Positions 18,950 to 57,407 of a DNA stretch of 64,000 nt are shown one piece after another. The stretch spans positions 28,231,037 through 28,295,036 of the forward strand of contig CM026426.1 in assembly GCA_014871385.1 (NCBI GenBank), given 5' to 3'. Under the pieces are notes generated by a model. It ran no database searches. It saw only the letters and a list, made by a program, of their open reading frames with translations, and was not told the origin of the DNA. The stretch is from Ceratodon purpureus. Its lineage: Eukaryota; Streptophyta; Bryopsida; Pseudoditrichales; Ditrichaceae. Every line of letters starts with the position of its first letter. Within the stretch, counting starts at the first letter, position 1. The position numbers and the translations under genes were made by a program.

Positions 18950-19117
18950 TTTTTTTAGGTGCTTAGGAACGTGGGGAACCGTCGGGAACGGAGAGGGTGA
19001 ACAAAGGGGGACGGGGTGAGTTGAGCTGCCGCCCGAGCCTAGCTGCGGAGACCGAGGCGATGACGGGGAGCGGGACGGGGGAGGAGCGCGTGGCGGGTCA
19101 GGCAACGGCGAGGGAGC

Positions 19118-19374
19118 CGGGTCTCTCTATTTTGCCCCATCGAGCGTTGCAGCCGCCCCTCACGCGGGCAGGGGCAGCGCAACGCCCCCCGACCCTCCCC
19201 CTCCCCTAACCAGGCTGTCCCCGACCCTGGGCGAAGCCCCGCGCGCACGTGGTGAGCCCCCGCGCGCGGGCTCCCGCTCCCCGCCCTGTCTTTCCGTCAG
19301 CCATTCTTCATCCCCGTCCCGTCACCCTCGTTGAGCCTCCACCCCCGCGCCCCGCGACGTCTCCCCCGTTGTGC
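19118..19374 (+). repeat. Left inverted repeat of the MULE-like element
   Basis: The core matches the reverse complement of 31397-31653 over 257 bases with no gaps and about 7 substitutions. It is about 70% GC, begins CGGGTCTCTCTATTTTGCCC and ends CGACGTCTCCCCCGTTGTGC. Confidence 0.92.
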
Positions 19375-20395
19375 ATTCAGCATGATTCGACGTTTTGCCC
19401 CTGAGTTTAGGACAGGCAGGTTTTGAATTCTAAGGTAGGGTTTACTCACAATGGCTATGGCATTTAGGGTGTGCATTAGCGGAGGTTAGGGGTTTAGGAT
19501 GTTTGTGCATTCTGTGATCTCGTGGTCAGGGTTAGGTCAGGTGGCCATGAGCATTCCTTCTCCGGGATAGAGGGGCAGGCTGTCTTCGAGCGTCCAGGGT
19601 TGGTCAAGTGCGAGTTTGAGGCTGCGATTGAAGACTCGTAAACCCCTCGGAGGCTGTCGACCGACTGGAGTTCTGGAGGCCAGGTGGGCGATCCCGGGGC
19701 CCATGTTTCCTCCTAGGTTTTAGACTTCGGGAGGGTGCTGGCTAGGAGGCGGGGACGCGTTCTGTGTCCTTGGACAGCGGTGCCATTGTGACGGTGAGGA
19801 AGGCGATTGCATCTCGGACTGCAGGTGGGCACCAAGCTTCGGCAGTGGAGGGCGTCTTCGTGCGTGTGGACACGCGACGTCGGCAGGAGGTGTCGGAAGC
19901 GTGAAATCAAGTGAGGCTACTGCCATGGGACCTCTACAGGCGCTGGTCAGTACTGAGCATCGTACCTCTCTTCCCGTTTGAGCTTTGCCCTTTGTTTTGA
20001 AGTTTTATGTTGTGTTGTAGTCACCTAGTTTTGCTGTCCTAATGTCTTCGTGTCTTCATGTTCTTCTCGATTTCCTGTCCTCGTCTCGGTCTGTCCTACC
20101 ACTGTATTAGGGTTTAGGGTCGTATTCAAGGTTGGTCTCCTCTTCTTTCCATCTTCCGGGGACCTTGTGTTCGGGATCCGTCGCAGCTTCGAGGATCCAA
20201 TTGGGCATGGTAAACCTCCGACAGTAGCTCCTCTTCAGTCCCATCGCGTCTCGGCTCCGCCTCTTCCCTTATGCTGTCCATGTTCTTCTTTGTCGAGTTC
20301 CTGTTCACCTTGGCTTCGTATCCCCACCTAGGTTCACCTTGGCTCTTCTCTCCGCACCTTTCCCCTCTGCCGTTGAATTTCTATTCGCCCTCGCG

Positions 20396-23300
20396 ATGTC
20401 GTTGCTCCGGGCCCTGACGATGGTGCCCTTCGCTGCCCAGATCCATGATCCCAGCACTCCAGACCTGTCTCGACTCTCCCGGCAGGACGCCTGCGATGTG
20501 CTGAGGCTGAGGGCGACAGAGCTGGACGTGAAGACGTTGTCGAAGGAATGGCAGTCCAAGATCGCGAAGTTGGATCCAGGAGTTGTCCCGGGGGTAAGCG
20601 ACTACAACTTCTCCCCTCATATCTGCATGTTGTCCTAAACATGATTTCCAAATTTTATTGTCATTCTCTTTGAATACCTTCTTCTATTCTACTTGGAGTT
20701 CTCAAGAATCGGGGCTCTGGTTTTGCAGCTCCAGGTGGAAGGAAAATTCGGCCCGGAGCGGGTCATAGTGTGCTGCAGCACATGGGTGGGATACGCTCCG
20801 AATAGGGACGCCTTCACCATGTCAGAATATGACTGGCTGATGGTGGAGGTTAACCTGTTGTGGCGAAGGACAAAGCCGGCACCGGAGGCAGTCGGGAAGG
20901 CCAGGACCAAGATCCCATTCTACTGCAAGTACTGCGACCTAGACATGGTGGACAAAGCAAACCTGGGATGGCATCGGCAAATGGAAATGTGCGAGGGTTA
21001 CGAGTACAATGTCTGGGGCCCTCTCAAGATTTATCCGGCGATGGGGGTGAATGGAAATAAGGAGTCCCGGGCGGTGTTTCGGAAGTATAACATCAAGCTA
21101 CCGTGGCAGATGCTCGGAAAAAAAACCAAGCCACCAGACACGGACGGAGACGAGTTGGAGACACATGGGGAAAGCACCGATTCAGGGGAAGATGGTACGA
21201 GCTCGGAGGAGGGGCAGGGTGGTTGCGCAGGTGTGGAGGTGGTCGAGATCTCCAGTCCAGAGAGGGAGACGGGGGGAGATACGAGGGGGGGGACCCAGCA
21301 AACGCCGACGCAAGGGAAGCGGGCAAGGGAGGAAGAGCCGCCATCTGTCGCGGACATGCTGCGTGAGAAGCGCAACGACTGGATGAAAGCGGGGTCGCCC
21401 AAGAGGCAGCGGCCCAGTCGAGCGCAAGGGAGTAAGGAGGGAGGGGGCCGCCGTGCTGACTGCAGTGGGCCGAAGGGCGGAGCAGGGCCATCCACTGCGG
21501 CCGGGAAGAGAGGGAGTAAGGGTGACCGCGGAGGAAGCACGGGGGTCGGGGGGAGAAGCCCTGCAGGGACCCCGAAGAATCAAGGGCAGAACGTTCCGGG
21601 GGTCGGGGGAAGGACACGGGCCGCGACACAGCAGGCGGGAACGACTCCAACAAAGGTAACCGAGAGGCGGCCGCGTGTCGGTTCCCCAAGTTCGGAGTAG
21701 AAGACCACCTCGGAGGAGTGGGTCCCGTCGGTGAAGGGAGGTAGGCGGAATGTGGGAAATGCAGGTCGAGCAGCGGAGCGCGAGCCGGCATCGGGGTCGA
21801 AGGGGGATGGGAAGCCAGGAGGGAGTGAGGGAGCGCAGGCGTAGGGGAAAAACACAGAACATTTGGAGGGGAAGGACCACGATGGTGCGAAGGGGAAGGG
21901 GGCAGAGGCTTCGAAGGGGAAGGAGGCAGGGCAGCCGAAGGGGAAGGAGCAGGTGCAAGCCAAGGGGGGACGACAGAGTCGGCGACTGCAGATACAAGAG
22001 GAAGCAAGGGAGAGGGTGCGAACGCTCTACCCGGATAATCAGGTGAAGCTAGCCCCCAGGAAGCCCGGGCATCCGCCGGGCTTGTACTGCTTGCAGAAGC
22101 AAGTAGGGACAATTCTCGCGGCGGACTGCATGAAGGATCTTCACGGCCCGGTGGAGATGCTGCGGAAGCTGCAGGAGGTAAGCCAACTGCCTGGGATGGT
22201 AGCCCATGCATGGGGGGCGCTGCAATTCAATCCAGACCTCACAGTAAGTTTCCGTCGCCATTGCTGAATTCCTATGAGTGCTTTCCATGCATTCTCCGAG
22301 CAGCCCTTGTGTATTGGCAAGGATTAATCGTGGCTGCCCCCCGGTTTATGACTGCAGGATGCGCTGCCGATCCAGTCCCTGAAGCTCCTGGACAGGTGCA
22401 AAGAGGCGTTTACGTCCAAATGCGAGGCAGCCATCGAGAGGGAAATCCAAGACTTCTACTTGTATCACGACGACGTACTGAGCTACGCAACGCGGGTGAA
22501 GGAGCACGAGGAGTCCATGGAGGCGAGGAAACAGTTGGTGAAGAACCGGGCTGCGTTTGTGGCTGAGGAGATGGCCAGATTTGACCGGGAGCTGAGTATT
22601 GCGGCGGAGGCTCGGGAATGGGGGTGGTCGCCTCTGTTCAGTCATATGATCCTCTTGCCTTTGCCACCCTGCCTCTGCAGGCCCTGTGAGCACTCCGAGG
22701 ACGAGTTCCAGGGTCTCATCAAATGGATGGAGCGGGAGAACCGCCAGGCCGGGGAGAAGAACGAGCCGCCCCATTTTGCGAGGGCATTGAAACTCTTCAG
22801 TCGGAGCGAGACAGGGGCTCGCGTGCCCATGCTGTGTCCGGTGCTCGGGCTGACGGAGGACACTCTCATGAAGAGATCGAGGCAGGTCATGCTCGCTATG
22901 GAGGAACTCATACGAGTGGGTAAAATTTATTTCCCCACGATGGATATTCATGGAGAAAGTTGGGAAGTCTTCCGAGAGGTGCTGGATGTCGGGGACGACA
23001 AGGGTGGGCAGGTGGAGAGCTACCAGCAGTGGAGGCGCGCCACCTTCATTCGTGCATGCATGGACGTGATGGATCAGGGGAAGGAGGATATATTGCGGGA
23101 CATGTGGGTAACCAAGGCAGGAGTGGATCAAGAGAAGGTCGCGGGGGCTTTTAGGACAGTCTTGCTCCTTCGCGAGAACATCGACCTCGAGTACGGGTGG
23201 GGGTCTCTGGAGGCTACGGGGCAATGGCCGGCTGCGGGGGAGTCACTGTTTGATGCAGCGAAGGAGATGCTCTCAAACAGCCAGTACCACATGCATGCGA

Positions 23301-23641
23301 AGTTGGCCGACTGGAACATCTCAGTGGACTTGGATGACTTGGATTACTTACCGTTGCCCTCGCAGGTGATGTGTACGTTCGACATGCCGCTGGTCTCGCC
23401 GTGTCTGGAGGGCGACAGCGCTTTCAGCCGGATGGAGAGAAGTAACTCGGGCGAGCGCAATGCAGGGGGGGAGTGGCACCTCGCACCGGATGCTGGGCAA
23501 GTGGAAGGCAAGCACCCTGAAAACCCTTCGTGCGAGGCTTCGGGAGGCGTGGAGCCAGAGGTCCCTTCATGCGAGCAGGTGGAAGATGTGGAGCCCGTTG
23601 TACCGTCATGCGAATCAGTTGTTTCCTTGGCTGCCCCTTAG
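20396..23641 (+). CDS. Partner gene of the MULE-like element (mudrB position), unknown function
   Basis: Three exons join in phase: 20396-20593, 20729-22243 and 22358-23641, all with GT-AG introns, for 998 codons. ATG 20396 is the first in-frame ATG. Exon 1 encodes a leader (MSLLRALTMV, RLSRQDACDVLRLRATELD). Exon 2 starts with a Trp-containing region and a possible zinc-binding site (FYCKYCDLDM, then WHRQMEMC) near 20918-20995, followed by a long low-complexity Gly/Lys/Ser/Pro-rich disordered tract and a helical region (EEARERVRTLYPDNQ). Exon 3 is acidic and helical (EAAIEREIQDFYLY, DMWVTKAGVDQEK) and ends in short PSCE-type repeats. Two in-frame TAG codons (21698 and 21842) interrupt exon 2, so this copy is probably non-functional unless they are spliced out or read through. 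It converges with the transposase gene. Confidence 0.65.
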
Positions 23642-26600
23642 TTCTTCTAGGCAGAATTCGCAGGGTGCTACTTCTGTATTAGTCAGTCCAGGACAGTTTT
23701 TGCTTGCTCTTACTTGGTTCAGTTTAGGACGGGCGGTTTGTAGGGGGGACGCTGGGCAGCTGCCGAGGACGGGGTTGGGAGTACGTTAGGCCAGAGACCA
23801 TTCGTATGTGACCACTGAAATTTAAATACACTTTCAAAATTCGTATGTTGCCTCCTCATGTGAATGTATTAACATTTAGTACAGAGTTTGATACTTAACT
23901 GGAAGCACGAAGAAGACTGATTAAAAGTGCAGAAACTCCGTAGGAAAAAAATCAGGCAACTACATCTCAGCATTGCGCCATTAGGACAGAGCCGGAGGTC
24001 GGCAGCCCTGGAGATCAAGGTTTTACCATGCTAAGTCCTCTTCATTCCTGTGTCCTAAGCGCGGGACTGGCAGGGCTTTACGGGCGAGTTCATTTAAATT
24101 AAATGAACAGGTAGAGAGGAGGAAATTTAGGACAGGGGACATTTAGGACAGAAAGCATGGAAGGGCAAAAACAAAGAGGGACGACCACAGATGTCTGTCC
24201 TAAATACAATTCTGGTGAGGATTTCCTCGAAACTCGGCAAGAAGCGACTCCAAAATAAAGGTGTTTCAAAATTTAACGTGGAGACTTCTTGTACATGAAA
24301 CTGGGGAATGGGGAAGAAGGGAAGACTGAAATTAGAAAGAATGGGGATGAAAATGAAAATGGGGAAGAATGGAAAACTGAAATTAAAGTAAATGGGGACG
24401 AAAATGAAAATGGGGAAGAATGGAAAACCAGAAAAAAAAAATAAAAAAATTGATGAAAATGAAACTGAGGATGCTAATGAAAAGGAATGGCAAATGGGGA
24501 GGAATTCAAACGCCCAAAATGGAAAAAAAAGGAAGAAAATGAAAATGACGAGAACGATGGAAATCAATATGAATCAGAAAAAACATTAAAAAAAAAAAAC
24601 CAAGAGTAAGGGCAGGGAAAATTTAGGAAATAAGTGAAGTCCACAGAATATATGCAAAGAATTCAGAAATAAAATATATATATTTAGAAAAAATCCAGAA
24701 GAACTGAACAATGGAAAAAAAATAAGAGTAATCAACAAAGAAAAGAAAAAATAAAAAACATGTGCGGTCCGTGCGGACCAGGGGATAGAAAGGGGTGATC
24801 AAAAGGGGTCACGAGGTACTATTTTTGGTAAAATTTAGAATGCTGAGGAACTAAATGTTCTAAACTTTCAAGAAGTAAATGCTATGAATTTAATACAGTG
24901 AGGTGAAAGGACAGGAGGCTGTAGGCAATGCATGTGAGGACGAAGGTACTAAACTTGTGAAAAAAAATTAAAAATTTGTAATCCTCGAATAAAATAAAAT
25001 AAAAGAAGACTCCGGAAAAAAAAACATAGAACTTAAAGGCGCTTTCATAGAAGGTTGTAGGGTTTAGGGTTATGTGACCTTTGGATGAAAAAGTTGGAGA
25101 AAAAAATCAGTACTTAGCGTTATGTTGGATCCATTTCACTGAGCAATAAGTTTTTAAATGCGGTGAGGATTTCCTCGAAAATACAAGGAGGCAGCGTCGT
25201 CCTAGAATTCCATCATTCCCCATGGCCAGGCTGACAAAAAAAAAAAGATCGAGAAGACGGCGAGGGCGATGGGAAGGAGCGAGGGCGAAGAGTGGAGCGA
25301 GTAGAGCTAAGGAGGAGGAATGGGGAGGCGGCGTCGTACGCAAAGATGCTGGCTACGACAGTCCCTCGTTTCAGTAAGCGGTGAGGACGTTTATGACAAG
25401 AAACATGTTCACGCAACCGAACATTAAAAGTATGAATCGAGAGCTGTAAACTTTGTCAAGTTCATAAACACATAAATAAGATCTACAAGGCAGGGAAAGC
25501 AAAATATTTAACTTCAATTCAAAACCTGGTGCAAAATTCTGAAGAACGAAGTGCTTATATCAAGTTTATGAATGCACCAAAGTAGGAATCTACAAGAAGG
25601 TGATAGCCTTCATGTTCGGAACTGGAAAAACCCCAACGTTTACTAGGGCGGCTCCCTCTCTGAATACAAAGACATCTTCAATTGTGAGTCCAGAAAGATT
25701 TGGATAAGTTGTGGAGCTTCTCTACAGAGAAGAACTCCTACACATTTGAGGAGCGTCGATGCGTCAAATTAGGGAATCACTAGTGCGTAGTTCAACTTAT
25801 CAATCCACATCTAATTGCCAAAAAAAGAGGTGTGAAGGTCAAAATTAACAGAATACTAAGTTCGGGTGTTCTTCAGATTCTTAACTGCCTCTTCATGTAC
25901 TTCCCGATGAAGCTATTGTAAAGAAGTTGCAGGAAAAAATCAGGCTTCACTTTGTTTAGTGCCCCTTCACGACACTTCATGATGAAGGTCTTCTGAAGAA
26001 GTTGCAGGAAAAAATCGGGCTTCACTTTGTTTAGTGCCCCTTCACGGCACTTTATGATGAATGTCTTCTGAAGAAGTTGCAGGAAAAAATGAGGCTTCAT
26101 TTTGTTTAATGCCCCTTCACGGCACTTCATGATGGAGGTCTTCTGAAGAAGTTGCAAAAAAAAATTAGGCTTCACTTTGTTTAGTGCCCTTCACGGCAGT
26201 TCATGATGAAGGTCTTCTGAAGAAGTTGTAGGAAATAAGCAGGCCCCACTTTGTTGAATTATTCGATGCCTTTCCCGCCCTTGTAGCCGTATGCGTTAAT
26301 TAAAATTAGCATCCTAAACTTGCAGAACCCTTTGAATTTTTATGGGACTCCTGAGAGAACTTGAATTTTCTGAATTTGCATGTAAAAAGCCTTTACATAT
26401 GAAAACTTGATTTCGCAAACTCCAGCTATCGATCAGGCGTTGATTACAACTTTGGAGTTAACGCTGCAATTTTCCTGCACGCTAAAGACACCAGTGTAGT
26501 ACTCCATCACGTTGTTGACTACATGAACCGGAGAGGCAATCTATTATTCTTGTAAGCCATGAGAAACGGAAGGGTGCTTGATTCATCAGTTTCATGATTC

Positions 26601-27485
26601 GCAGACCCTGAACAATTTTTTTATTGAAAACCGGGAAGTGAAATGTGTTCCTAAAGAAGAGAAGGTCTTTTAAATGACCCCTTCAAGAGCATGAGGTCTT
26701 CGTATGAGTTTATCTCACGCAGTATAACCATGATTTTATTTTTATTTCCTAAATCTCCTCCTCTTCTTAGCATACCACTCGAGAACTTGCAATACTACAT
26801 AAATATAACATGACCAAAGCCGGAGAACTGCAAAGTAAAAAGATTGAAAATCAAATATTCATTGAGTACCCTAGGTTGCTACGTTTGCAAATGGAGAAGG
26901 GTTACCAAGTGGCAATTAAATTAATGAAGCATGGATTATACAGTAATTTAGGACAGGTAACCAACTGCTGTGAACCACAGTGTGTAGGATTATTTAGGAC
27001 AGGTAACCAATTCTAGTTAACCTGTGTGTAGGATTATTTAGGACAGGCAACCATGGCTGAACCTTCTAGAGTGAAATTTGGTGGAGTGAAGGTTTTCTGA
27101 ACTCCAGGTCTGCAATGTTGAATTCGGTGACCGCGGGACTGAGAACAGAATCTGAACTATAGTAATACGAAGTACTGCAACCGTGTCTCTTGTGCACAGT
27201 GATTCCGGAATTTTAAGGGTGGCCTAAAATTCCACACCCACTACAATTTCGAAGACGACCATAGATGACAGAAGGACTAGAGTGGGAGCCGAAGCCTCCT
27301 TGGGCAGGGAAAAGAGAAGCTGGGCATATGCCATAGCCTTCTTGTACTCAGAAAACTGAGGTAACAATACTCGTTTAAGTACACATACATACAGTACCTG
27401 CATACCCTGTCTATCCTGTACAGAGTACTCTTCCCCCCTAATAAACTCCTGTCCTCGTACTCCTCTGTCATATTACTCCCCTGTC
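23642..27485. other. Central spacer of the MULE-like element
   Basis: Gene-free spacer between the two convergent 3' ends. It becomes A-rich (24300-25060, with GAAAATGGGGAAGAATGG-type imperfect repeats at 24300-24430), contains nine of the 16 TTAGGACA copies (23.98-27.78 kb including the edge of the transposase gene) and the 75-bp array. ORFs here are composition effects. Transcription terminators of both genes must lie at its edges. Confidence 0.6.
25885..26262. repeat. 75-bp tandem repeat, about 4.5 units
   Basis: Units begin AAGAAGTTGCAGGAAAAAAT at 25921, 25996, 26071 and 26146, with a partial unit at 26220 and a degenerate half unit before 25921. Because 75 is a multiple of three, the minus strand stays open as a 25-residue repeat (KPDFFLQLLQKTFIMKCREG). 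I see no start context or splice link, so I treat it as a minisatellite. Confidence 0.9.
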
Positions 27486-30400
27486 CTACTCCCATTTCCT
27501 ACTTCGCCCGGCAGCCCTTTTCTTAGTCCCAGTCTCGAAGCATGCTTTGAAGCGCCGCAGATTCTTGGGCCCTGCATTCACTTTGAAGGACGGCTGTGAG
27601 AGAGGGTGCAGCAAGCCTGCCTCGGATTTGGCTTTCAGTGCAGCCATCTTTCCTGTGGCCTCAGCCTGGATAGCTAGGAAATGCTCCCGGAGACCCACAT
27701 TCTCAAGCGCTAGAGTATCCGCTTCCCCCAGGAACCCCCTCATCTGGATGTACGTCTTCTCAGGATCGTCTGACTTTAGGACAGCCCCTCTGATGTCCTG
27801 GATTGCTGCTTCGCCTGTCCCGTCTCCCATGTCCAGGCCAGCAGTACTGCAGCCACTTTGAATCGTCCCCCTCAAGGTCCCAACATACCGTATGATGTCT
27901 CCAAGGTGAACCTCCGTGTTTATCATCCTAAACACCTTCACCACATGCTTGCAGATGTTACCTCGCATGCCCAATGGGCAGTTGCAGTGAGCCCAGTCTG
28001 AATTTGGGCTGGTCACCACCCAGATCGCTGGAAAGTTAGTTTGAGACGCAACATAGGCCACGTCCTGGTCCTGGCAGATAGACACATGCTCGTCGGGGAT
28101 CTCTGCAGCCCTTATGACTGCACTGGCCACAATCCCCTCTGCCTTCCCGTTCTTGATAAACCCGTACAGCTTACACTGGACAGCATACCAGTAGTGAATT
28201 AGTACATCCCTGACCAGATGGTAGATTAACCAGTCCACACGGCGGCCGTCGAACTTCTGCCTGAAAAACCTGAGAATGGCCTTGAGGTTGGCGTGGTAAC
28301 TCTCAACTGCTGCGTTGGTGTCCTGGTTGCAGTGGGGGATGTTGCGGAAACCCTTGACCCACATTTCCAGCTTGGGAATCCATGTTTCTTCAAAATACTG
28401 GAAGAATGCCTTTGCTTGTGGATACTTAGCCTTCAGGAAGTTGAAACGCTCCTGCGCAGCCTTCACAGCAAGATCTCCCTGGAGGATACCGTTTCCATAC
28501 ATTAGGTCAGCACAGGCAGACAGAATCTCTGCCCTAAGATAGTTTGCCTTGATCTTCTGAGTCGCATTCTCCAGCCACGCCTTGCGTGTATGCCACAGAC
28601 ACAGCAAAATCTTCACGTCGTCCTTCGTTCCTCCTTCAACAGCATCGGCCTCAGGCCAGACCTTCCTGCAAAGTGACATGAAAGCGGGCTGTTTCAGGGA
28701 CGTGATGAACCCTAAACTGCTACATGTCCTAATCATATTTAAGACACTCCCCCGGAGATATAGTAGTCAGTGTCCTCACCTAATTGCATTCAGTTCAGCC
28801 TGGTCGTTGTCAACCAAGAAGGAGCTTGGTCTCCAATCAGGCTTCACAGCTATGCAACGATCCCGCAGCTTCGTAAGCCACAGTGTGATGTCCTGTTCCC
28901 GTGACCTACCCTGGATTGTGAAGGCTACTAGTATCCCTTGCTCCCATTCGTCGAACACCATCACCGTATATAGTGGATACTGCACCCGAGGACAGGGAGA
29001 ACAATATCAGAGATGGCTCGGACAGGAGGACAGGCAATTAAACTCGTATACAGCAAACAGGGCTTCATGTGTACAGAAGATTTGGAGGGTGACCGGCGTG
29101 CTAACCTTGGGGGCGTTGGTGGAGAAAGTCGCATCTATAGAGAGAGCCCTCCTGTGGCCATGTCTGACCATCATCTCTAGTTGCCAGTCTGTTTGGATGG
29201 CCAGGCAGAATGGGTCGTCCTCAGGAGGTGGCGGCTCATTGAGCTGTACAGTCCCATACTCACGATAGTGATAGTGACAGTCTGCATTCTCGTCTGTCCA
29301 CATACGGACACTCATGGCATCGGAGGGATGCTTTTCCCACAATTCTTTGGCAAGCTTGTTAGCGATGTTATATACGTCGGACGGCATAATGAATGTGTCC
29401 CTCGTGGCTGGCAGGTTATTCTGCGCACATCGCATTACTTCCGCCTTGTGCTCGGCCATGACCTGGGCAAGCGACTTGCCTGACCTCAAGGTGTCTGCTA
29501 TCCACTTCTTCGTGGCTGCTGACAAATGACCTGATAGGCCAGCTCTGTGGCCTCCAAACTGTGCTCCATGACACTCCTTCCCTTCCCGGTTAGTATGGGT
29601 CATGCAGTGAAATTGAATAGTACAGAGTTTTTCATCGCACTGTAGCTGTTTTGCAACGAAATTGCATTGGCAGCCGCGCTTGATTGACATCCCGGCCTGG
29701 ACCTTGCTCACCCGGGTCTTTCTCTTTGGCTTTGAGGCTGCTTCGATCAAGGCCTGCGCCTGCAGCAGCTTCTCCTGTGCTTCCTGTAGGCGAGCAAGCT
29801 CTTTTGCGTCCTCATCCACAGCCTCAACATTAAGGTCAGGGACAGGGATAGTCTCTGTCTTACCTTTCTTTTTAGGCCGCCCCTTCTTCCCAGCCTCTTT
29901 TGCGGCCTTCTTCTCAGCATCTTTTGCAGCCTTTTCAGCATCTTTTGCAGCCTCCTCTACAAGCTTCTGAGCCTTCTTCACGGCCTTCCTCTGATTAGTG
30001 GAGTTCTTTCTCTGGGTGAGGCAGTGAGAGAAGACCTTTTGCACTTCGGCTTTGTATTGGCGACTGTAGTCCACCGGCCCATATTGACACCAATAGCTGC
30101 ACAGGACACAGAGAGGGGCATGTAAAGTGAGCTGAACCTGTCCTACTGTTCGAGGTTGCACAGCAGCAGCGAGGGACTCAGAAAATCGCAACAGACAGAA
30201 ATTGCAAACGAAAGGAGCTGTCCTAAGCAGGGAAGCACTTCAGGCCAGGCATTACCTTATCTCCTGGACAGCCGAGTCAGCCCTGATCTGTTTCCTAGCA
30301 TCCCTCTTCATGCATCGGCGGGACTCCTCCACAAAGGTACAGGGATGTTGACGGGCAGACATCTCACCCTCGAGGAAGTCCTCCAACCTATCCCATGGGA

Positions 30401-30710
30401 TAGTGACCTTCTGCGTCTCCCTTCGCTTCCCATTCCCCTGGTTCCACTTGGACTCCCACCGCAGATCTGTCCTACAGAATGGCCCGGGGGGTGGGTTCTG
30501 GACAGACCTTCTAACCCTGTCTGCCACCCTCCGCCAGGAGGGCCTCTTGATCTTCTCGTCCAGAACAGCACTCTGGACGCCCAAGTCCTCGACTTCAGGT
30601 TCATCACCACTTGGTTCCTGGACGGGCTGTGTCCTAAAACTGAGAGAGTCTTCACCTTCGCTGAGTTCTCGCTCTTCTTCCGGAATGACCCTGTCCTCCC
30701 CATCCTCCAT
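27486..30710 (-). CDS. MULE-like SWIM-domain transposase, four exons, apparently intact
   Basis: Four minus-strand exons with GT-AG borders (30710-30256, 30096-29106, 28979-28780, 28665-27486) join in phase into 941 codons with no stop. ATG 30710 begins MEDGEDRVIPEEERELSEGE, an acidic N-terminus. Exon 2 has a Lys/Ala/Glu coiled coil, a nuclear-localisation-like GRPKKKGK, a Cys/His module (GCQCNFVAKQLQC, CMTH, KECHG) and the first catalytic Asp in SIDATFSTNAPK. Exon 3 continues with YPLYTVMVFDEWEQG and the second Asp in SSFLVDNDQAEL. Exon 4 holds LCLWHTRKAW, helical domains and a SWIM zinc finger (CNCPLGMRGNICKH) near 27.95-27.99 kb, ending in a basic tail (KKRAAGRSRKW). DATF, WH-KAW and SWIM are hallmarks of Mutator-like transposases, which cut DNA at the inverted repeats. 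The third acidic residue was not pinned down. Confidence 0.9.
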
Positions 30711-31132
30711 CTCCTCGTCGCACTACTCATCCATTCCGTAGCCTGCTGATCCGACTGGCTGCTGAAGCCGCTCGGAAACAGGCCGTGGTGCATCGGAGTG
30801 GACTGCCCATCTGCCTTGTCGACAGCCGACATTGATGTCGGGAGTCTCCTCCCTTCGGGCTCGCCCTCCTTCATCTTCTGCTGCATCGCCCCCGGCCTCC
30901 TAGAAGCCCCAAGTGCTGTCCTCACCGACCGCGCCCAAGTCCACCGCATAAGCGTCCGCCCCGAACTGGACATCATGCATCTGTACAGTGTTTGCGAGGT
31001 CCGGATCGTGCTCCCGATCCGATGAGTATGCATGACAGGGGTAGAATGGAGTCACACCGATCCGAAGTGATTCACTCAGCAACCGTCATCTCATGCTGAA
31101 TGAAGCTCGCGCTACAAGTACCGCTCACCCTT

Positions 31133-31202
31133 CCCCATGCATCGCATAATCCCAGCAACTACAACCTCCCCCATGCATCGCATAATCCCAGCAACTACAA
31201 CA
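31133..31202. repeat. 36-bp tandem duplication near the right end of the element
   Basis: CCCCATGCATCGCATAATCC plus about 15 further bases occurs twice in direct tandem with a period of 36, upstream of the transposase gene. It could be a duplicated regulatory site. Confidence 0.85.
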
Positions 31203-31396
31203 CAGCAGGTTCATGAAAACTTTCCGCACAAATGACACAAGCTCGACAATCCTCAACCCCGCCCAACCTTCCCATGCCATGTCCGATCCAAATTCCCTAC
31301 AAACTCATGAATTCGCCCCTGGCTCTGCTTCACAGCGTCGCCCCGACGTTCAAAACTGCGCAGCCGCCGTCAGGAGAGACGCCGAGAATAATGATG

Positions 31397-31653
31397 GCAC
31401 AACGGGGGAGACGTCGCGGGGCGCGGGGGTGGAGGCTCGACGAGGGTGACGGGATGGGGATGAAGAATGGCTGACGGACAGACAGGGCGGGGAGCGGGAG
31501 CCCGGGCGCCGGGGCTCACCACGGGCGCGCGGGGCTTCGCCCAGGGTCGGGGACAGCCTGGTTCGGGGAGGGGGAGGGTCGGGGGGCGTTGCGCTGCCCC
31601 TGCCCGCGTGAGGGGCGGCTGCAACGCTCGATGGGGCAAAATAGAGAGACCCG
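31397..31653 (-). repeat. Right inverted repeat of the MULE-like element
   Basis: Reverse-complement partner of the left repeat at about 97% identity. It lies upstream of the transposase gene, so its inner edge probably holds the transposase promoter. GC-rich sequence continues outward to about 31.83 kb. Confidence 0.92.
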
Positions 31654-31850
31654 AGGGAGCCCGATCGGGGAGCTGCCTGGGCCGGGGTGGAACGGGGGAG
31701 GCTGCGGGCAGGGCGAGGGCGGGGCAGCCTCCGCGCTCCCCCATTTCTGCCCCGCCCTTAGTGACGAGGGGTGCCCGGGTGGTGGTTTGGGGCAGAGAGA
31801 GCACCCTGCCCGATTCCCCGGGCTGAAGAAATAAAAAAAACCTGTTCCTG

Positions 31851-32526
31851 TCTCTCTCCTCTCTCTCTCCCCCCCATCGTCACCTTCATTCGCAACATAT
31901 GCTTGCTTGTGTATGCCGATGTAACAGATTTTCTGATCCGCATGTTGACGTCACTCTCTCGGTTTCGTTACCCTTGTTTGTCCATTCCCCCGTGTGTTCA
32001 ATAAAGCTGTTGTTGTGCGATTTTGTCACCTTTGCGTGAAGGAATCCCTATTCCGCTGGAGCTGGTCGCTAGCAGAGTTGGCTGATCGCGCTGCGGTTGC
32101 GATTGAGGTCAATTGCGACCGCAAAGGTACGTGGACGCAGCGCGGTAAATGCTTCCATACTCTCGAAAGTTCGCAGCATTGTTGCTTGCGTAGATTTCTC
32201 TCGCAACAGTTTAAGTTTTCTATTTTAGCTGATTTGTTTCTACTAGTAATTTCGGTGGGCTTGTGTGTTCAGCTTGGAAGCTGCTATTTCCATCAGGGAA
32301 GGATTAACCAAGAGGCGGCGCCCGCGGTGTTTCGGTAAGCCCTTGGCCGCTACCTTCTCCAGCAGCCAAGTGAGTTCACTTATCACTGTCGCATTTTTTG
32401 CACTGGGACATTGGTGATTGGAGACATTCCGAGGGCGTTCTGTGTTTTGTTTCTCTTCGTTTACAAAGTGGTCATGGTCTGCTAGGATTTTAAGGTTTCC
32501 GTTATTAGTTTCTCCCACCTGCCAAG
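31851..32526. other. Boundary zone between MULE-like and Harbinger elements
   Basis: A CT-rich run (31848-31875) is followed by mixed sequence containing a short inverted GGTTGCGATTGAGGTCAATTG-like segment near 32095-32120. No gene is seen; it probably includes the leader of the Harbinger transposase, whose left inverted repeat was not identified. Confidence 0.4.
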
Positions 32527-33607
32527 ATGGATCGTCGTCTCAACCCGGACAATGTCGCGTTCTTCCTGCCTTCACTCGTTCTGCTCCTACAGATGGTTAG
32601 AGAATTTAGAATGACCAAGACAGCCGTGTTTTGTCTAACCGACATCCTCAGGCCTCATATTGAGCGCCAAAATACCCACTACAAGCTTGCAATTCCTTCC
32701 ATCGTGAGAGTCGCATGCACTCTATTCAAGTTGTGCGAAGGGGCGTCTTTGCTTTTGTGCTCAGAGTTTTTTACTATTGGGACTAGCACAGCGTCCGGTA
32801 TAATCCGTGACGTCGTGAAAGCAATTAATGATGAGCTCCGCAGTGAAATTTGTGGCCAGATGGTAACGGGCTCTTGCTCAATATGGCTCAGTTAGTGGTC
32901 TGCCAAGGGTTGTAGAGGCGACAGATGGGACTCATTTCCACATTAGAAAACCAAATATCAGCTGAGAAGATTATTTCTACTTCAAAAGTGGAGGTTTCAC
33001 TATGGCTTGTCAAGTTGTTGTCAGGGATAGGAAGTTCATCGACATATCAGTTGGTATGCCTGGATCAACAAATGATGCTAGGTAGTTACGAAAGTCCATG
33101 TTATATCAAAAAGCCACTACTACTCCACTGTTTGATCCAGCCAATTCGGTTGACGGTTTTGTTCCTTACTTGATTGGGGATAAACGTTACCCCATTTTCC
33201 CCTAGCTCATAACTCCCTACCGGGACATTCCTGGGGGCCGCAGAAGTGTGCAAGAATTACTTTTTAATCGCAGACTATCCTGAGCAAGAAGTGTTGTTAA
33301 GGATGCATTCTGCATTCTCAAGCAGACATTTCGTGAATTGCACAGTGCCTCGGATCTCCACGTAACTCTGTTACCGGATGTGGTAGTATGTTGTTGCATT
33401 CTCCACAACATGCTTCTGGATCAGACACCAGAAGAGGTGGATCGGCTACTAGCCATGTTACAAAGGAAGGGTATGGCATCGGTCTCGATGAAGACCCTCT
33501 CCAAGAGCGCCCTGCCGAGGACGGAGCTCTTCCTAACAAAGTCGAGAGTGCAAGGAAGCGGACACGCTTGGCTGCTTTCCTTGCACAGGACCGAGTGCAT
33601 ATGTGAT
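32527..33607 (+). pseudogene. PIF/Harbinger transposase, decayed copy 1
   Basis: ATG 32527 opens MDRRLNPDN and leads into the typical N-terminal helical region (VREFRMTKTAVFCLTDILRP, YKLAIPSIVRVACTLFKL). After a frameshift near 32.88 kb comes the first catalytic block (EATDGTHFHI), then FKSGGFTMACQVVV, the second (GMPGSTNDAR) and GDKRYPIFP. A TAG at about 33204 follows, where Trp is usual. The third block reads VVKDAF, so the catalytic Glu is replaced by Lys. The order matches DDE_Tnp_4-type PIF/Harbinger nucleases. Frameshifts, stops and the lost Glu show it is inactive. It is related to the better copy at 63.2 kb. Confidence 0.85.
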
Positions 33608-34357
33608 CCGAGGTCACAGGGGGCTTGGGGTGGTTGGGGGGATGGGGTGGGTGGTGGGCTCGAGTTCATGGCGAGGGGGATATGAGCTTCAACGGGAATT
33701 GGTCGTAACGGCTGGAGGAGGGGGAGGTTGGCGGGTGATACAACAAGGTCAGATTCGGCATAACAGGTGAGACAGTGTAAAATTGCTGCAGTTTCTTCAT
33801 AACTTGTGCGTAGTAGCTATCCTTTTTATTACATAGATTTGCTCCTCTCCACAATGGAGAGTTGAGCCTTACAGGACATTTTTTTAGACGTCTAGAAGAC
33901 GTCTTGTAAAACGGTTACTCTGCCTACACGCTAACATGAAGACTCGATGTGCAGGGGACATCTGGAGGAGTGCATATGGCGACTGAAGCAGATAGAGAAT
34001 AACAAAAGGACATTGAGGACTACATTAGCGGGAGTGATGCCAGCGAAATGGAAGACATCGTTAGGACATAGGAAAGTGAAAGACGTACAGCCGGGTTGAA
34101 GGTAAGTCCCCTGAATCCCGACTGTCAATGAAAGCTAACTGCCTGACACATGAATTATTGGAACTAAAAACTTACGTAGTGAAACTGATTGTTATCCTGG
34201 TCTACTCTTGTGCAGGGCAGTCGTAGTCTTCGTCACATGTACCTCCATCCGGTGCAGGAGTTGTTGTAATATCAGGAACAGCGGCCGGTGGTTTTGTGGG
34301 TGCCACGGTGCAACTGATTGCGTTTGCCAAGCTGGCAATAGCCTCTACCACCATTCC
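33608..34357. other. Spacer within Harbinger element 1
   Basis: Non-coding sequence between the convergent transposase and accessory frames. A short palindrome (AGACGTCTAGAAGACGTCT) is at 33886-33904. Nothing else was recognised. Confidence 0.4.
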
Positions 34358-47107: not shown

Positions 47108-47141
<34 letters not shown>

Positions 47142-48700
47142 CCTCCACCTCCACCTCCACCTCCACCTCCACCTCCACCTCCACCTCCACCTCCACCTCC
47201 ACCTCCACCTCCACCTCCACCTCCACCTCCACCTCCACCTCCACCTCCACCTCCACCTCCACCTCCACCTCCACCTGGACCTCCACCTGGACCTCCACCT
47301 CCACCTCCACCTCCACCTCCACCTCCACCTCCACCTCCACCTCCACCTCCACCTCCACCTCCACCTCCACCTCCACCTCCACCTCCACCTCCACCTCCAC
47401 CTCCACCTCCACCTCCACCTCCACCTCCACCTCCACCTCCACCTCCACCTCCACCTCCACCTCCACCTCCACCTCCACCTCCACCTCCACCTCCACCTCC
47501 ACCTCCACCTCCACCTCCACCTCCACCTCCACCTCCACCTCCACCTCCACCTCCACCTCCACCTCCACCTCCACCTCCACCTCCACCTCCACCTCCACCT
47601 CCACCTCCACCTCCACCTCCACCTCCACCTCCACCTCCACCTCCACCTCCACCTCCACCTCCACCTCCACCTCCACCTCCACCTCCACCTCCACCTCCAC
47701 CTCCACCTCCAAATAGCACTTTTTACACTTGTAAATAGTAGTATGACGTCTTAGAAAGAAGAAACAATATGATTATCTGAATTTTATACTTATTAAACAC
47801 TTGTTAGTCATTGCACGATGAATCAACAAAATTGTGTATTACGTAAAAAATGAGTATGTAAATCAATATTTGATCCAATTTTCAATAAATTCCACTTTAT
47901 TTGAGATATAATATATTAAACCCTCTATTTTTATTATCTACATATAATATATACACTCATATGTCTACAAACCTGAAATTGTTGTTCCATAATATTTTGT
48001 AGTGATTTTCTATATATAGCATCCAAACTGTTAATGGCTTCAACATTTAACTACATGCCAAGAATTTATTTGAAACTAGTAGTAGTCAATAAAAATAACA
48101 TCTATCAATCACGTAGAAGTATATAAGCATAATATCGTTATTCCATATCTAGGTTGAACATTAAGTTGTAAATAATTAGAATTGTAATACTAAAATTATT
48201 GTCATGGCATTTTTCAATTATTTATCTTATTTCCAAATTGCAAGATCCTTATGTTATTGATTTAGATTGAATAAATTAGTGGCTTTAGCTTACAGTTTGA
48301 ATGCCTTCTCCATCTATTAAGCATCGTTTCAAAGTCAACAATATGTGTAACTTATTGGTTACCAGGGCTTCACCATTTAGCCTATGGATAGTGTAACAAC
48401 TACTTTCGTGATTCTTTCCTGTTGAAAAACCACCTCTTTTTCATTTTGGATGTTCAAGGAGCCATCTTTATATAATGTTAATGGAACATTTCAAAGATAT
48501 ATATAACTTTAGACTAAATGTAAAATTAACAGATATCAAAAGTTCAGATAAGAACTCAAACCTATTATATAATCTCTATACAGTTCCCAAGTAGCAAGAG
48601 CTTGTAGAGCCTCATTGTTTACTTTGTCAGCCTCTACACAAGTCTCCATAGTCTCTGCATTGAGCTTCTTGTATGCCTCAATAACTCTATATATTTCTTT
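45181..48700 (-). CDS. Multi-exon host-like gene, disordered protein, unknown function
   Basis: Four minus-strand exons join in perfect phase with GT-AG borders: 48700-48562, 48418-48294, 48050-47973 and 47031-45181 (TAA), giving at least 730 codons without a stop. The 5' end is incomplete, because the first exon starts at an acceptor (TTTTACAG). The small exons encode helical segments (VIEAYKKLNAETMETCVEAD, LHILLTLKRCLIDGEG, INSLDAIYRKSLQNIMEQQ). The last exon opens IKGPRYTMPVHPALSPDVYN and becomes a long Ser/Lys/Asn-rich, probably disordered tail ending His/Gln-rich. The intact frame, clean splice phases and lack of C-to-T stops contrast with the elements around it and suggest a selected host gene. 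I do not recognise the family. Further upstream exons may lie at 48.9-49.5 kb. Confidence 0.7.
47062..47140. repeat. TATATG/TA microsatellite
   Basis: Alternating TATATG and TATA units abut the CCACCT array, between it and the last exon of the minus-strand gene. Confidence 0.9.
47141..47710. repeat. CCACCT hexanucleotide array, about 95 units
   Basis: 570 bases of near-perfect (ACCTCC)n with only two variant units (CTGGAC at about 47275-47288). On the minus, gene-sense strand it reads (GGAGGT)n. It lies in the 941-bp last intron of the minus-strand gene. The poly-Pro, poly-Gly, His-Leu and Glu-Val frames it creates are repeat artefacts. Confidence 0.97.
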
Positions 48701-56297: not shown

Positions 56298-56345
56298 TGG
56301 ATTGGTGAAAGGAAACGTGTGTCGCTTGTTTTCCCCTAAGACACC

Positions 56346-57407
56346 ATGCCTCCACAAAAAATCGCTGCAGAAACAGCTCGAAACAATGAGGCCGAGGACG
56401 CCATAATTGTCCAAGACGATCCTGATACTACGAAAGAGTTTCTCCAATGGATGAAACAACAAATGGCGGATCTTGCTGCCCGGGCCGAAGCTACCAATGC
56501 CAAACTGGAATTTCTGAGTGAACAATACCAACACATGCAAAACAGCCGAAACCAGGACCCCATGGACGGCACACAACCAGACCTTGCTGGCCAAGCTTCA
56601 CAAATAGCCGCCGAAGCAATAAGGTCAGCCACAATCCCACGACAGAATCCCACAGCTGGGATATCACACAGCTCAGGTAGCCACAAGAGTCACGCAAAGC
56701 TACCTAAAATCCCTTACCCCGTTTTCGATGAGAAAGGCGACCCTGACTGGCATCTACGGAGATTTAAAGTAATAGCCAGAACCAATGGTGTTAACAATCC
56801 CGCTGACTTACAGAACATTTTTTGCACCACATTACAAGGCCATCACATCAACTGGTTTATTGATTTCAAAACCGATCATCCCTTGGCAACCTGGGAGGCC
56901 ATGGAGACCAGTTTCTTACACAAATTCCGTAAACTAAAAACAAGTTCGGAAATTTTAAGAGCTCTAGGCACCATTGTCCAAGAACGAGACGAATCGGTGG
57001 ATAGATTTTACGACAGGTTCAGACAGCTCGCTGACAAACTAAATCAAAAACCAAAAGAGGAATACCTCTGCGAATGGTTCAAAAAGGGGTTACTACCCTG
57101 GATTCAGCAAGGCATAGTCATCAGGGGAGTAAAAACTTTACAGGACATCCTAGACGCCGCAAATGACATTGGTCGAGAACTAGGAGCCCTTCAAAAAACC
57201 CAGACCCCGCTGTTACCCCTCCCAACCTATCGTGCAGAGGTCCGGGGACAACTGACACCATGTACCAACTGTGGAAAACTGCATGGGGGGCGTTGTTGGT
57301 TCGCCAATACTGTGTCACGTCCCGAAGAGCCACGCCGACCTCGCCCAGCCGCGGCCGCCGTCCAAACAGAGGAAATTGGAGTTGATCCCTTTCGAGGACA
57401 GCATTAA
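56346..57407 (+). CDS. Gag protein of gypsy element 2
   Basis: An uninterrupted 353-codon ORF from ATG 56346, 70 bases after the LTR. The N-terminus is acidic and helical (EFLQWMKQQMADLAARAEAT). Residues about 120-270 form the plant retrotransposon gag core (DPDWHLRRFKVIARTNGV, WEAMETSFLHKFRKL, DRFYDRFRQLADKL). A zinc-knuckle-like motif CTNCGKLHGGRC is near residue 309, followed by a Pro/Arg-rich tail. Gag packages the element RNA into virus-like particles. The frame is intact, unlike the other retroelements here, but no protease, reverse transcriptase or integrase follows, so the copy cannot move by itself. Confidence 0.9.
   Translation: MPPQKIAAETARNNEAEDAIIVQDDPDTTKEFLQWMKQQMADLAARAEATNAKLEFLSEQYQHMQNSRNQDPMDGTQPDLAGQASQIAAEAIRSATIPRQNPTAGISHSSGSHKSHAKLPKIPYPVFDEKGDPDWHLRRFKVIARTNGVNNPADLQNIFCTTLQGHHINWFIDFKTDHPLATWEAMETSFLHKFRKLKTSSEILRALGTIVQERDESVDRFYDRFRQLADKLNQKPKEEYLCEWFKKGLLPWIQQGIVIRGVKTLQDILDAANDIGRELGALQKTQTPLLPLPTYRAEVRGQLTPCTNCGKLHGGRCWFANTVSRPEEPRRPRPAAAAVQTEEIGVDPFRGQH

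Follow-up and report, generated by a model that had tools for sequence, protein, structure and literature searches.

The 64,000-nucleotide stretch of Ceratodon purpureus DNA analysed here (the window) is part of a 110.5-Mb contig, C6, in a 362.5-Mb assembly in 151 contigs (C6:28231037-28295036), and it holds a transposase gene and a second large gene facing it between long terminal inverted repeats (TIRs). We asked whether this locus is one transposable element and, if so, what the second, accessory protein might do for it. We found a complete Mutator-like element (MULE) of a moss lineage that carries the same gene pair, with a 9-bp word, TTAGGACAG, dispersed through it. The word was absent from a preliminary description of this DNA and is the best clue to function. 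We consider it evenly poised whether the accessory protein is an element-specific DNA-binding protein that works like VANC of Arabidopsis VANDAL elements without being homologous to it, possibly against silencing.

A perfect 9-bp target site duplication, GAGGGAGCC, fixes the exact ends of the element at window positions 19119 and 31652, giving one MULE of 12,534 bp whose left end starts GGGTCTCTCTATTTTG. The inverted-repeat arms (19118-19379 and 31392-31653) are 97% complementary over 262 bp, with 10 mismatches of which 7 fall within the first 256 bp; the TIR itself is ~256 bp long and 97% identical (7 mismatches). This bears out the inverted repeats of 257 bp and ~97% identity in the preliminary description, and the duplication is of the 9-11 bp kind that it had proposed looking for by aligning the ends. 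Its nearly complete 12.9-kb MULE at 18950-31850 holds as to class and as to the element lying inside that range, which exceeds the element by ~370 bp altogether; the size is replaced by a complete 12,534 bp. The boundary features are:

19110..19118, unstranded: left target site duplication GAGGGAGCC, identical to 31653-31661
19119..19374, plus strand: left TIR, on the accessory side, ~256 bp (arm alignment)
31397..31652, minus strand: right TIR, on the transposase side (arm alignment)
31653..31661, unstranded: right target site duplication GAGGGAGCC, identical to 19110-19118

Characteristic features of a MULE were found here: a transposase domain, a 256-bp TIR, duplications of 9-10 bp, and the DDE and CxxH residues. 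The same arrangement recurs across the genome, where our counts rest on scored best candidates and include fragments. A search with the TIR gave 40 scored matches (173 candidates), of which 32 make 16 facing pairs, each match being paired with the nearest facing one within 100 kb, and 8 are unpaired. In 12 of the 16 pairs the match starts are 11.8-12.7 kb apart, with an accessory match inside all 12, and the remaining four pairs lie 16-91 kb apart. TIRs scattered without the genes, which the preliminary description had named as evidence against a single element, did not appear as any short gene-less pair among these scored matches. The window copy (E01) and ten fetched copies of the same family (E02-E07 and E09-E12; loci L010-L029, in pairs) measure 12.1-13.0 kb, and their flanks show duplications of 9 bp in ten copies and 10 bp in E02. 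Seven subfamily representatives, picked non-randomly from a list of 20 to span identity classes (S2, S7 and S12, L030-L035; S3, S14, S9 and S15, L036-L043), are complete elements as well: all seven have TIRs, a 9-bp duplication visible in the flanks and the two genes in convergent order, and their lengths are 8.1-10.6 kb. Target duplications are thus present in 18 of 18 elements (window plus 17 fetched; 9 bp in 17, 10 bp in 1).

The conserved N-terminal domain of the accessory protein (N-domain) was scored at 150 places (311 candidates; 43-100% identity) and the transposase core at 143 (764 candidates; 56-100% identity). A convergent accessory N-domain lies within 15 kb at 115 of the 143 transposase places, and at 63 of the 67 outside contigs C6, C126 and C136; conversely, 114 of the 150 accessory places have a convergent transposase within 15 kb. 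These counts uphold the suggestion in the preliminary description of a MULE lineage that has an accessory protein of its own, and on the sequence we regard the element and its lineage as near certain. Among the open-licence PMC papers listed by our searches, none was seen to describe this moss lineage, and the main text of PMC6446971 is without the words moss, Bryophyta and Physcomitrella.

Contig C6 makes up 30% of the assembly yet holds 73 of the 150 accessory places (P 2e-6) and 74 of the 143 transposase places, as well as ~31 of the 40 accessory matches with internal stops (hand count). Such an excess of broken accessories is as expected of a non-recombining, putatively sex chromosome. The U and V chromosomes of C. 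purpureus are each given as >100 Mb in a genome of 360 Mb, according to the available text of PMC8000587.

Both convergent spliced genes of the preliminary description proved real, with the transposase on the minus strand facing the accessory on the plus strand. By our gene model the transposase has 4 exons and 941 aa and is open in the window copy. The accessory gene has 3 exons and 998 codons; its exon boundaries are backed by other copies, and a database homologue, P0009, has intron 1 in the same position. The large spliced partner gene is therefore present as described, although in this copy its frame is broken by two nonsense codons. The gene features are:

20396..20593, plus strand: accessory exon 1, 66 codons (gene model; intron 1 position common with P0009)
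20729..22243, plus strand: accessory exon 2, with two in-frame TAG codons here (gene model)
20924..20992, plus strand: C2H2-like finger pattern C-x2-C-x12-H-x5-C (alignment, profile matches)
21698..21700, plus strand: nonsense codon TAG in the accessory frame (frame reading)
21842..21844, plus strand: second nonsense codon TAG in the accessory frame (frame reading)
22358..23641, plus strand: accessory exon 3, 427 codons, conserved C-terminal part (gene model, subfamily alignment)
27486..28665, minus strand: transposase exon 4, with the catalytic E and a putative SWIM finger (gene model, Pfam, alignment)
28780..28979, minus strand: transposase exon 3 (gene model)
29106..30096, minus strand: transposase exon 2, with a putative N-terminal zinc-binding pattern and the first catalytic D (gene model, alignment)
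30256..30710, minus strand: transposase exon 1 (gene model)

Accessory exon 2 is open over 506-512 codons, up to the next intron, in E02-E05 and E09. Since the stretch is open in these five other copies, we read the two TAGs of the window as nonsense codons; the window element would then have an open transposase gene beside an accessory gene that probably no longer works. Exon 2 is broken otherwise in E06, E07 and E10, and E11 and E12 have an early stop at its aligned start, which may be intron sequence. Both genes are open in at least three copies (E03, E04 and E05; exon 1 checked for indels only), and the spliced transposase frame is stop-free in 7 of the 11 same-family copies (E01, E03-E06, E09 and E10). 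Two candidate introns were rejected. A single large intron spanning both TAGs (189 nt, in phase) showed no pyrimidine-rich end by eye and covers the stretch that is open in E02-E05 and E09, and a 57-nt intron near 22626 would remove conserved protein in the subfamilies.

The N-domain of the accessory protein (136 aa) is conserved across subfamilies and in P0009. Within it the C-x2-C-x12-H-x5-C pattern is complete in 10 of 11 aligned sequences, and an 11-sequence profile of the domain matched 15 PDB entries to E 1, 14 of them zinc-finger proteins aligned at the finger stretch; zf-C2H2 and other finger models of Pfam match the accessory weakly. The pattern is probably a C2H2-like finger and, to judge by its spacing and this weak similarity, may be a working zinc finger. 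The C-terminal part, though conserved, was matched by nothing at a convincing level; a protein search with residues 495-900 gave none at E 0.01 among 7473 candidates, with a query that predates the known subfamilies. DUF1985 and DUF287 were absent from the Pfam matches to E 0.1 of 11 N-domain and 5 C-part sequences. Single-sequence structure predictions of two accessory pieces reached a mean predicted local distance difference test score (pLDDT) of 34.8 and 42.1, and no fold was inferred from them.

Between diverged copies the ratio of nonsynonymous to synonymous substitution rates (dN/dS) of the accessory was 0.05-0.20 over the N-domain and the exon-3 part in five comparisons. Four of these (E03-E07, E03-E09, E03-E11 and E09-E11) gave 0.05-0.13 for the N-domain, 0.13-0.20 for the exon-3 part and 0.07-0.09 for the transposase; the fifth, E03-E04, gave 0.11, 0.15 and 0.02, respectively. 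The linker between the two accessory parts had a dN/dS of 0.27 (E03-E11) and 0.38 (E03-E04), and close copy pairs gave noisy accessory values (0.06-0.58). By these ratios the accessory is under purifying selection. By DNA identity it is also evolving faster than the transposase: identity between E11 and the window copy is 72-74% for the main accessory exons, 83% for accessory exon 1 and 81-92% for the transposase exons. In the five diverged pairs (E03, E04, E07, E09 and E11), and not in close pairs, synonymous divergence (dS) of the accessory was ~1.5-4x that of the transposase, for example 1.43 in the accessory exon-3 part versus 0.44 in the transposase for E03-E11, which suggests an exchange of gene modules between subfamilies.

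In a de novo k-mer scan, TTAGGACAG was the strongest dispersed 9-mer of the element. It occurs 12 times in the window, always inside the element and nowhere else, where whole-window shuffles gave a mean of 0.56; in 60 order-3 Markov simulations no 9-mer without a long single-base run exceeded 6. Together with TAGGACAG, the form one base shorter, it is distributed as follows:

19407..19415, plus strand: TTAGGACAG just inside the left TIR (word scan)
20034..20098, minus strand: two TAGGACAG upstream of the accessory gene (word scan)
23151..23159, plus strand: TTAGGACAG in the accessory coding sequence (word scan)
23981..24203, unstranded: four TTAGGACAG clustered between the genes, two of them in a 16-bp tandem unit (word and repeat scan)
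26946..27053, plus strand: tandem array of ~44 bp, 2.4 units, with three TTAGGACAG (word and repeat scan)
27481..27488, minus strand: TAGGACAG overlapping the transposase stop codon (word scan)
27776..27784, plus strand: TTAGGACAG in the transposase coding sequence (word scan)
30138..30226, minus strand: two TAGGACAG in transposase intron 1 (word scan)
30467..30474, minus strand: TAGGACAG in transposase exon 1 (word scan)

The word thus lies partly in tandem units (24121-24151 and 26946-27053), and 13 of 16 sites are non-coding by the exon model (P 0.02). All 11 same-family copies carry TTAGGACAG 9-18 times, as the top 9-mer of each with most of the TIRs removed. With tandem arrays masked, the word was still the top 8-mer in E01, E07, E09, E11 and E12 (scores 8.9-20.2, exceeding all 50 simulations of E03, the largest of which reached 5.5), the top 9-mer of masked E12 being the neighbour CCTGTCCTA. 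Outside elements, in 82,185 bases drawn from the remainder of the window and from sequence flanking the seven representatives, we counted TTAGGACAG 0 times, TAAGACAG once, CCAGGACG 0 times and CCAGGAC 4 times. A literature search with a 10-base word gave no transposon title among the matches listed.

The word or a near neighbour still ranks first in subfamilies S2 and S3. The TAGGACAG sites there lie mostly in DNA that does not align with the window copy (7 of 8 in S2; 10 of 11 in S3), and when S2 is compared with S3, 10 of 11 word sites fall outside mutually aligned DNA. Such placement speaks for a word that is kept up or repeatedly gained, and not for a fixed sequence passed down. More distant subfamilies tend to favour related words, in part overlapping. 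TAAGACAG occurs 6 times each in S7 and S9 (maximum 3 in 200 simulations), which have 2 and 0 copies of TTAGGACAG; CCAGGACG occurs 10, 7 and 8 times in S12, S14 and S15 (simulated maxima 7, 4 and 4), none of which has TTAGGACAG, and the DNA that aligns with S12 does not include 3 of the 7 sites of S14 and 5 of the 8 sites of S15. The best masked de novo 8-mer exceeded all 50 simulations run for each element in S2, S3, S9 and S12. At the predicted finger helix, the window copy, S2 and S3 have ANLGW, E09 has ANLEW and E11 ANLSW; S7 has AHLGF, S9 AHVGF, and S12, S14 and S15 share SELAW. With three groups on one tree, it is no more than suggestive that word use shifts between distant subfamilies in step with the finger helix.

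These patterns resemble the VANDAL21/Hiun and VANDAL6 elements of Arabidopsis, which in the available text of PMC5735166 and PMC10398659 combine a MULE transposase with a faster-evolving accessory and carry short words of 8-9 bp, partly tandem, in introns and differing between families. VANC21 is described as binding YAGTATTAY, a 9-bp word in non-coding, partly tandem-repeated parts of VANDAL21, whereas VANC6 targets carry other words, and VANC is reported to diverge faster than VANA (PMC5735166, in the text available). VANDAL words are further described as multiplying as tandem units, and VANC as causing loss of methylation over the whole element (same portions of PMC5735166 and PMC10398659). 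The moss element differs in its long TIRs, its C2H2-like finger pattern and the absence of DUF1985 and DUF287 from the Pfam matches; no third gene was noticed in its list of open reading frames, beyond which no search was made. Given the finger pattern and the lack of those Pfam matches, we file it as a MULE that is perhaps VANDAL/VANC-like in its working, and not as a member of that group.

We propose that the accessory protein, with the transposase as the less likely candidate, would bind the scattered word (TTAGGACAG in the window family), and the bound accessory would mark its own element rather than other DNA. Its most likely use, by analogy with VANC, would be to prevent or lift the silencing of its family. 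We slightly favour binding of the word by the accessory; that its effect is anti-silencing is a more tentative proposal, drawn from the analogy and somewhat doubtful. The boldest form of the idea, that mosses independently evolved sequence-specific anti-silencing through a MULE zinc-finger protein unrelated to VANC, with word and protein changing together across more than 100 copies, we hold to be on the unlikely side, the more so because the words overlap between subfamilies and the evidence for the finger is weak.

A number of results weigh against this proposal. With the whole accessory span taken as coding, 11 of 16 sites are non-coding (P 0.11), a modest bias, and in this whole-span test only 4 of 18 elements (S2, S3, E11 and E12) reach P <0.05; other tandem arrays of the element are without the word, and TAGGACAG occurs 2 times in the DNA outside elements. 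The shift of words is not clean: S7 and S9 retain 4 and 3 TAGGACAG (simulated maximum 2), S15 also has 4 TAAGACAG (simulated maximum 3), and S9 has 8 CCAGGAC (simulated maximum 6). S7 aligns along all of S9, so that the two count once and are not independent, and in the masked de novo scan S7 and S15 pass only the 95% level and S14 neither level. Since helix and word alike track the phylogeny of the family, common descent may account for their agreement. As to the protein, the S15 finger is without its first Cys, the lowest profile E-values (1.5e-9 and 9.1e-9) belong to chains of many fingers, none of which has a single stretch that passes, and single-finger PDB matches are at E 0.17 or worse. 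No DUF1985 or DUF287 match to E 1 was found in the accessory exons of the window, and by this test the protein is not a VANC. Finally, 28 of the 143 transposase and 36 of the 150 accessory places have no convergent partner within 15 kb, and the transposase, which carries a putative zinc-binding pattern of its own in the N-terminal half, could be the protein that binds.

That last point leads to a rival account, which we think unlikely, in which the word would be a transposase binding site and the accessory a helper of transposition or integration, as proposed for MURB of maize, with no epigenetic role. Internal transposase sites are known for many DNA transposons; the putative zinc-binding pattern in the N-terminal half of this transposase is conserved, and each of the 11 same-family copies has one word immediately inward of the left TIR (element position 289-311). 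The words are not clustered at the ends, however, but lie between genes, in introns and in exons, with none in the TIRs of the window copy, and the word seems to shift between subfamilies, while the transposase is better conserved than the accessory when the same copies are compared. Less probable again, in our judgement, is an ordinary two-gene MULE whose accessory has some other role (nuclear import, dimer partner or repair recruitment), the word being a by-product of local duplication. Part of the word sites do lie within short tandem arrays, as this account would have it, yet masking the arrays leaves the word as top 8-mer in the five copies tested, the word persists in the non-aligning DNA of two subfamilies, and TTAGGACAG has no occurrence in the 82,185 non-element bases. 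That the repeats flank host genes by chance, with no single element at all, is refuted by 18 complete elements with duplications at different sites and by the same gene pair at 115 of 143 places, and we give it practically no weight.

Other two-gene MULEs offer further comparison. MuDR of maize has a convergent layout and makes a 9-bp duplication, and the moss element is ~2.5x as long. Its two genes, mudrA and mudrB, likewise lie between long TIRs (PMC6446971, in the text available), whereas the moss accessory has 998 codons and a finger pattern. The preliminary description had likened the plan to that of MuDR, and the layout is indeed alike; kinship of the accessory with MURB was not seen, there being no Pfam match beyond the weak finger models in a comparison that included no MURB sequence. 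Spectre and Ghost of invertebrates also have a second zinc-finger open reading frame beside the transposase (C2H2 in Spectre, RING in Ghost); they differ in their hosts and, in the available text of PMC6446971, no dispersed word is described for them. The likeness is one of description only.

That a transposon is recognised by the accessory protein it encodes, through a short word repeated within it, has been described for Arabidopsis VANDAL (available text of PMC5735166 and PMC10398659). If the proposed self-marking by the moss accessory is true, it would be a second, non-homologous case, and element-specific self-marking would look like a response to silencing that recurs. The system would also lend itself to testing as a simple pair of protein and DNA, with a short conserved domain on one side, a 9-bp word on the other, and natural variants of each.

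The transposase of the window matches the Pfam MULE model PF10551 at 7.3e-11 (42.8 bits against a cut-off of 27.6) and the ZSWIM1-3 RNaseH-like model at 3.5e-8; the SWIM model reaches 15.7 bits, under its 19.6-bit cut-off. D, D, E and CxxH, residues of known role in such enzymes, are all kept in the alignment, and a homologue, P0008, appears to run into an intron at the place of the exon 2 boundary. We found eight relatives, seven of which cover 96-99% of the searched region at 29-33% identity, including proteins from Pyrus (LOC103965988), Typha and Dendrobium as well as Gb_34654, whose prefix we take to denote Ginkgo. These plant SWIM proteins, possibly of the AT1G60560/AT4G13970 type, align over 96-97% of that region but are shorter (~700 aa) than the element transposase, and in 5 of the 7 full-length matches R replaces the H of CxxH, which the element transposase retains. 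This replacement could mean that they are domesticated, and the element lineage may be a mobile relative of a conserved plant SWIM protein family.

Searches of Rfam matched nothing at gathering scores, prokaryote genome contigs gave no match, and viral contigs gave a single 11-residue match that we take as chance, further viral-contig searches being empty. The flanks of the element at 18960-19118 and 31653-31840 also look GC-rich, and the element may sit within a short pre-existing GC-rich patch. Close to its right end, 32509-33685 holds fragments of a nuclease of the PIF/Harbinger type (1.4e-5 for DDE_Tnp_4 at 33284-33685; HTH_Tnp_4 weak). Farther along, a retrotransposon gag open reading frame lies at 56340-57407 (PF03732, 1.2e-11), and 47141-47711 is a nearly pure ACCTCC hexanucleotide array (95 copies, 98% match) in which several frames are open as simple repeats.

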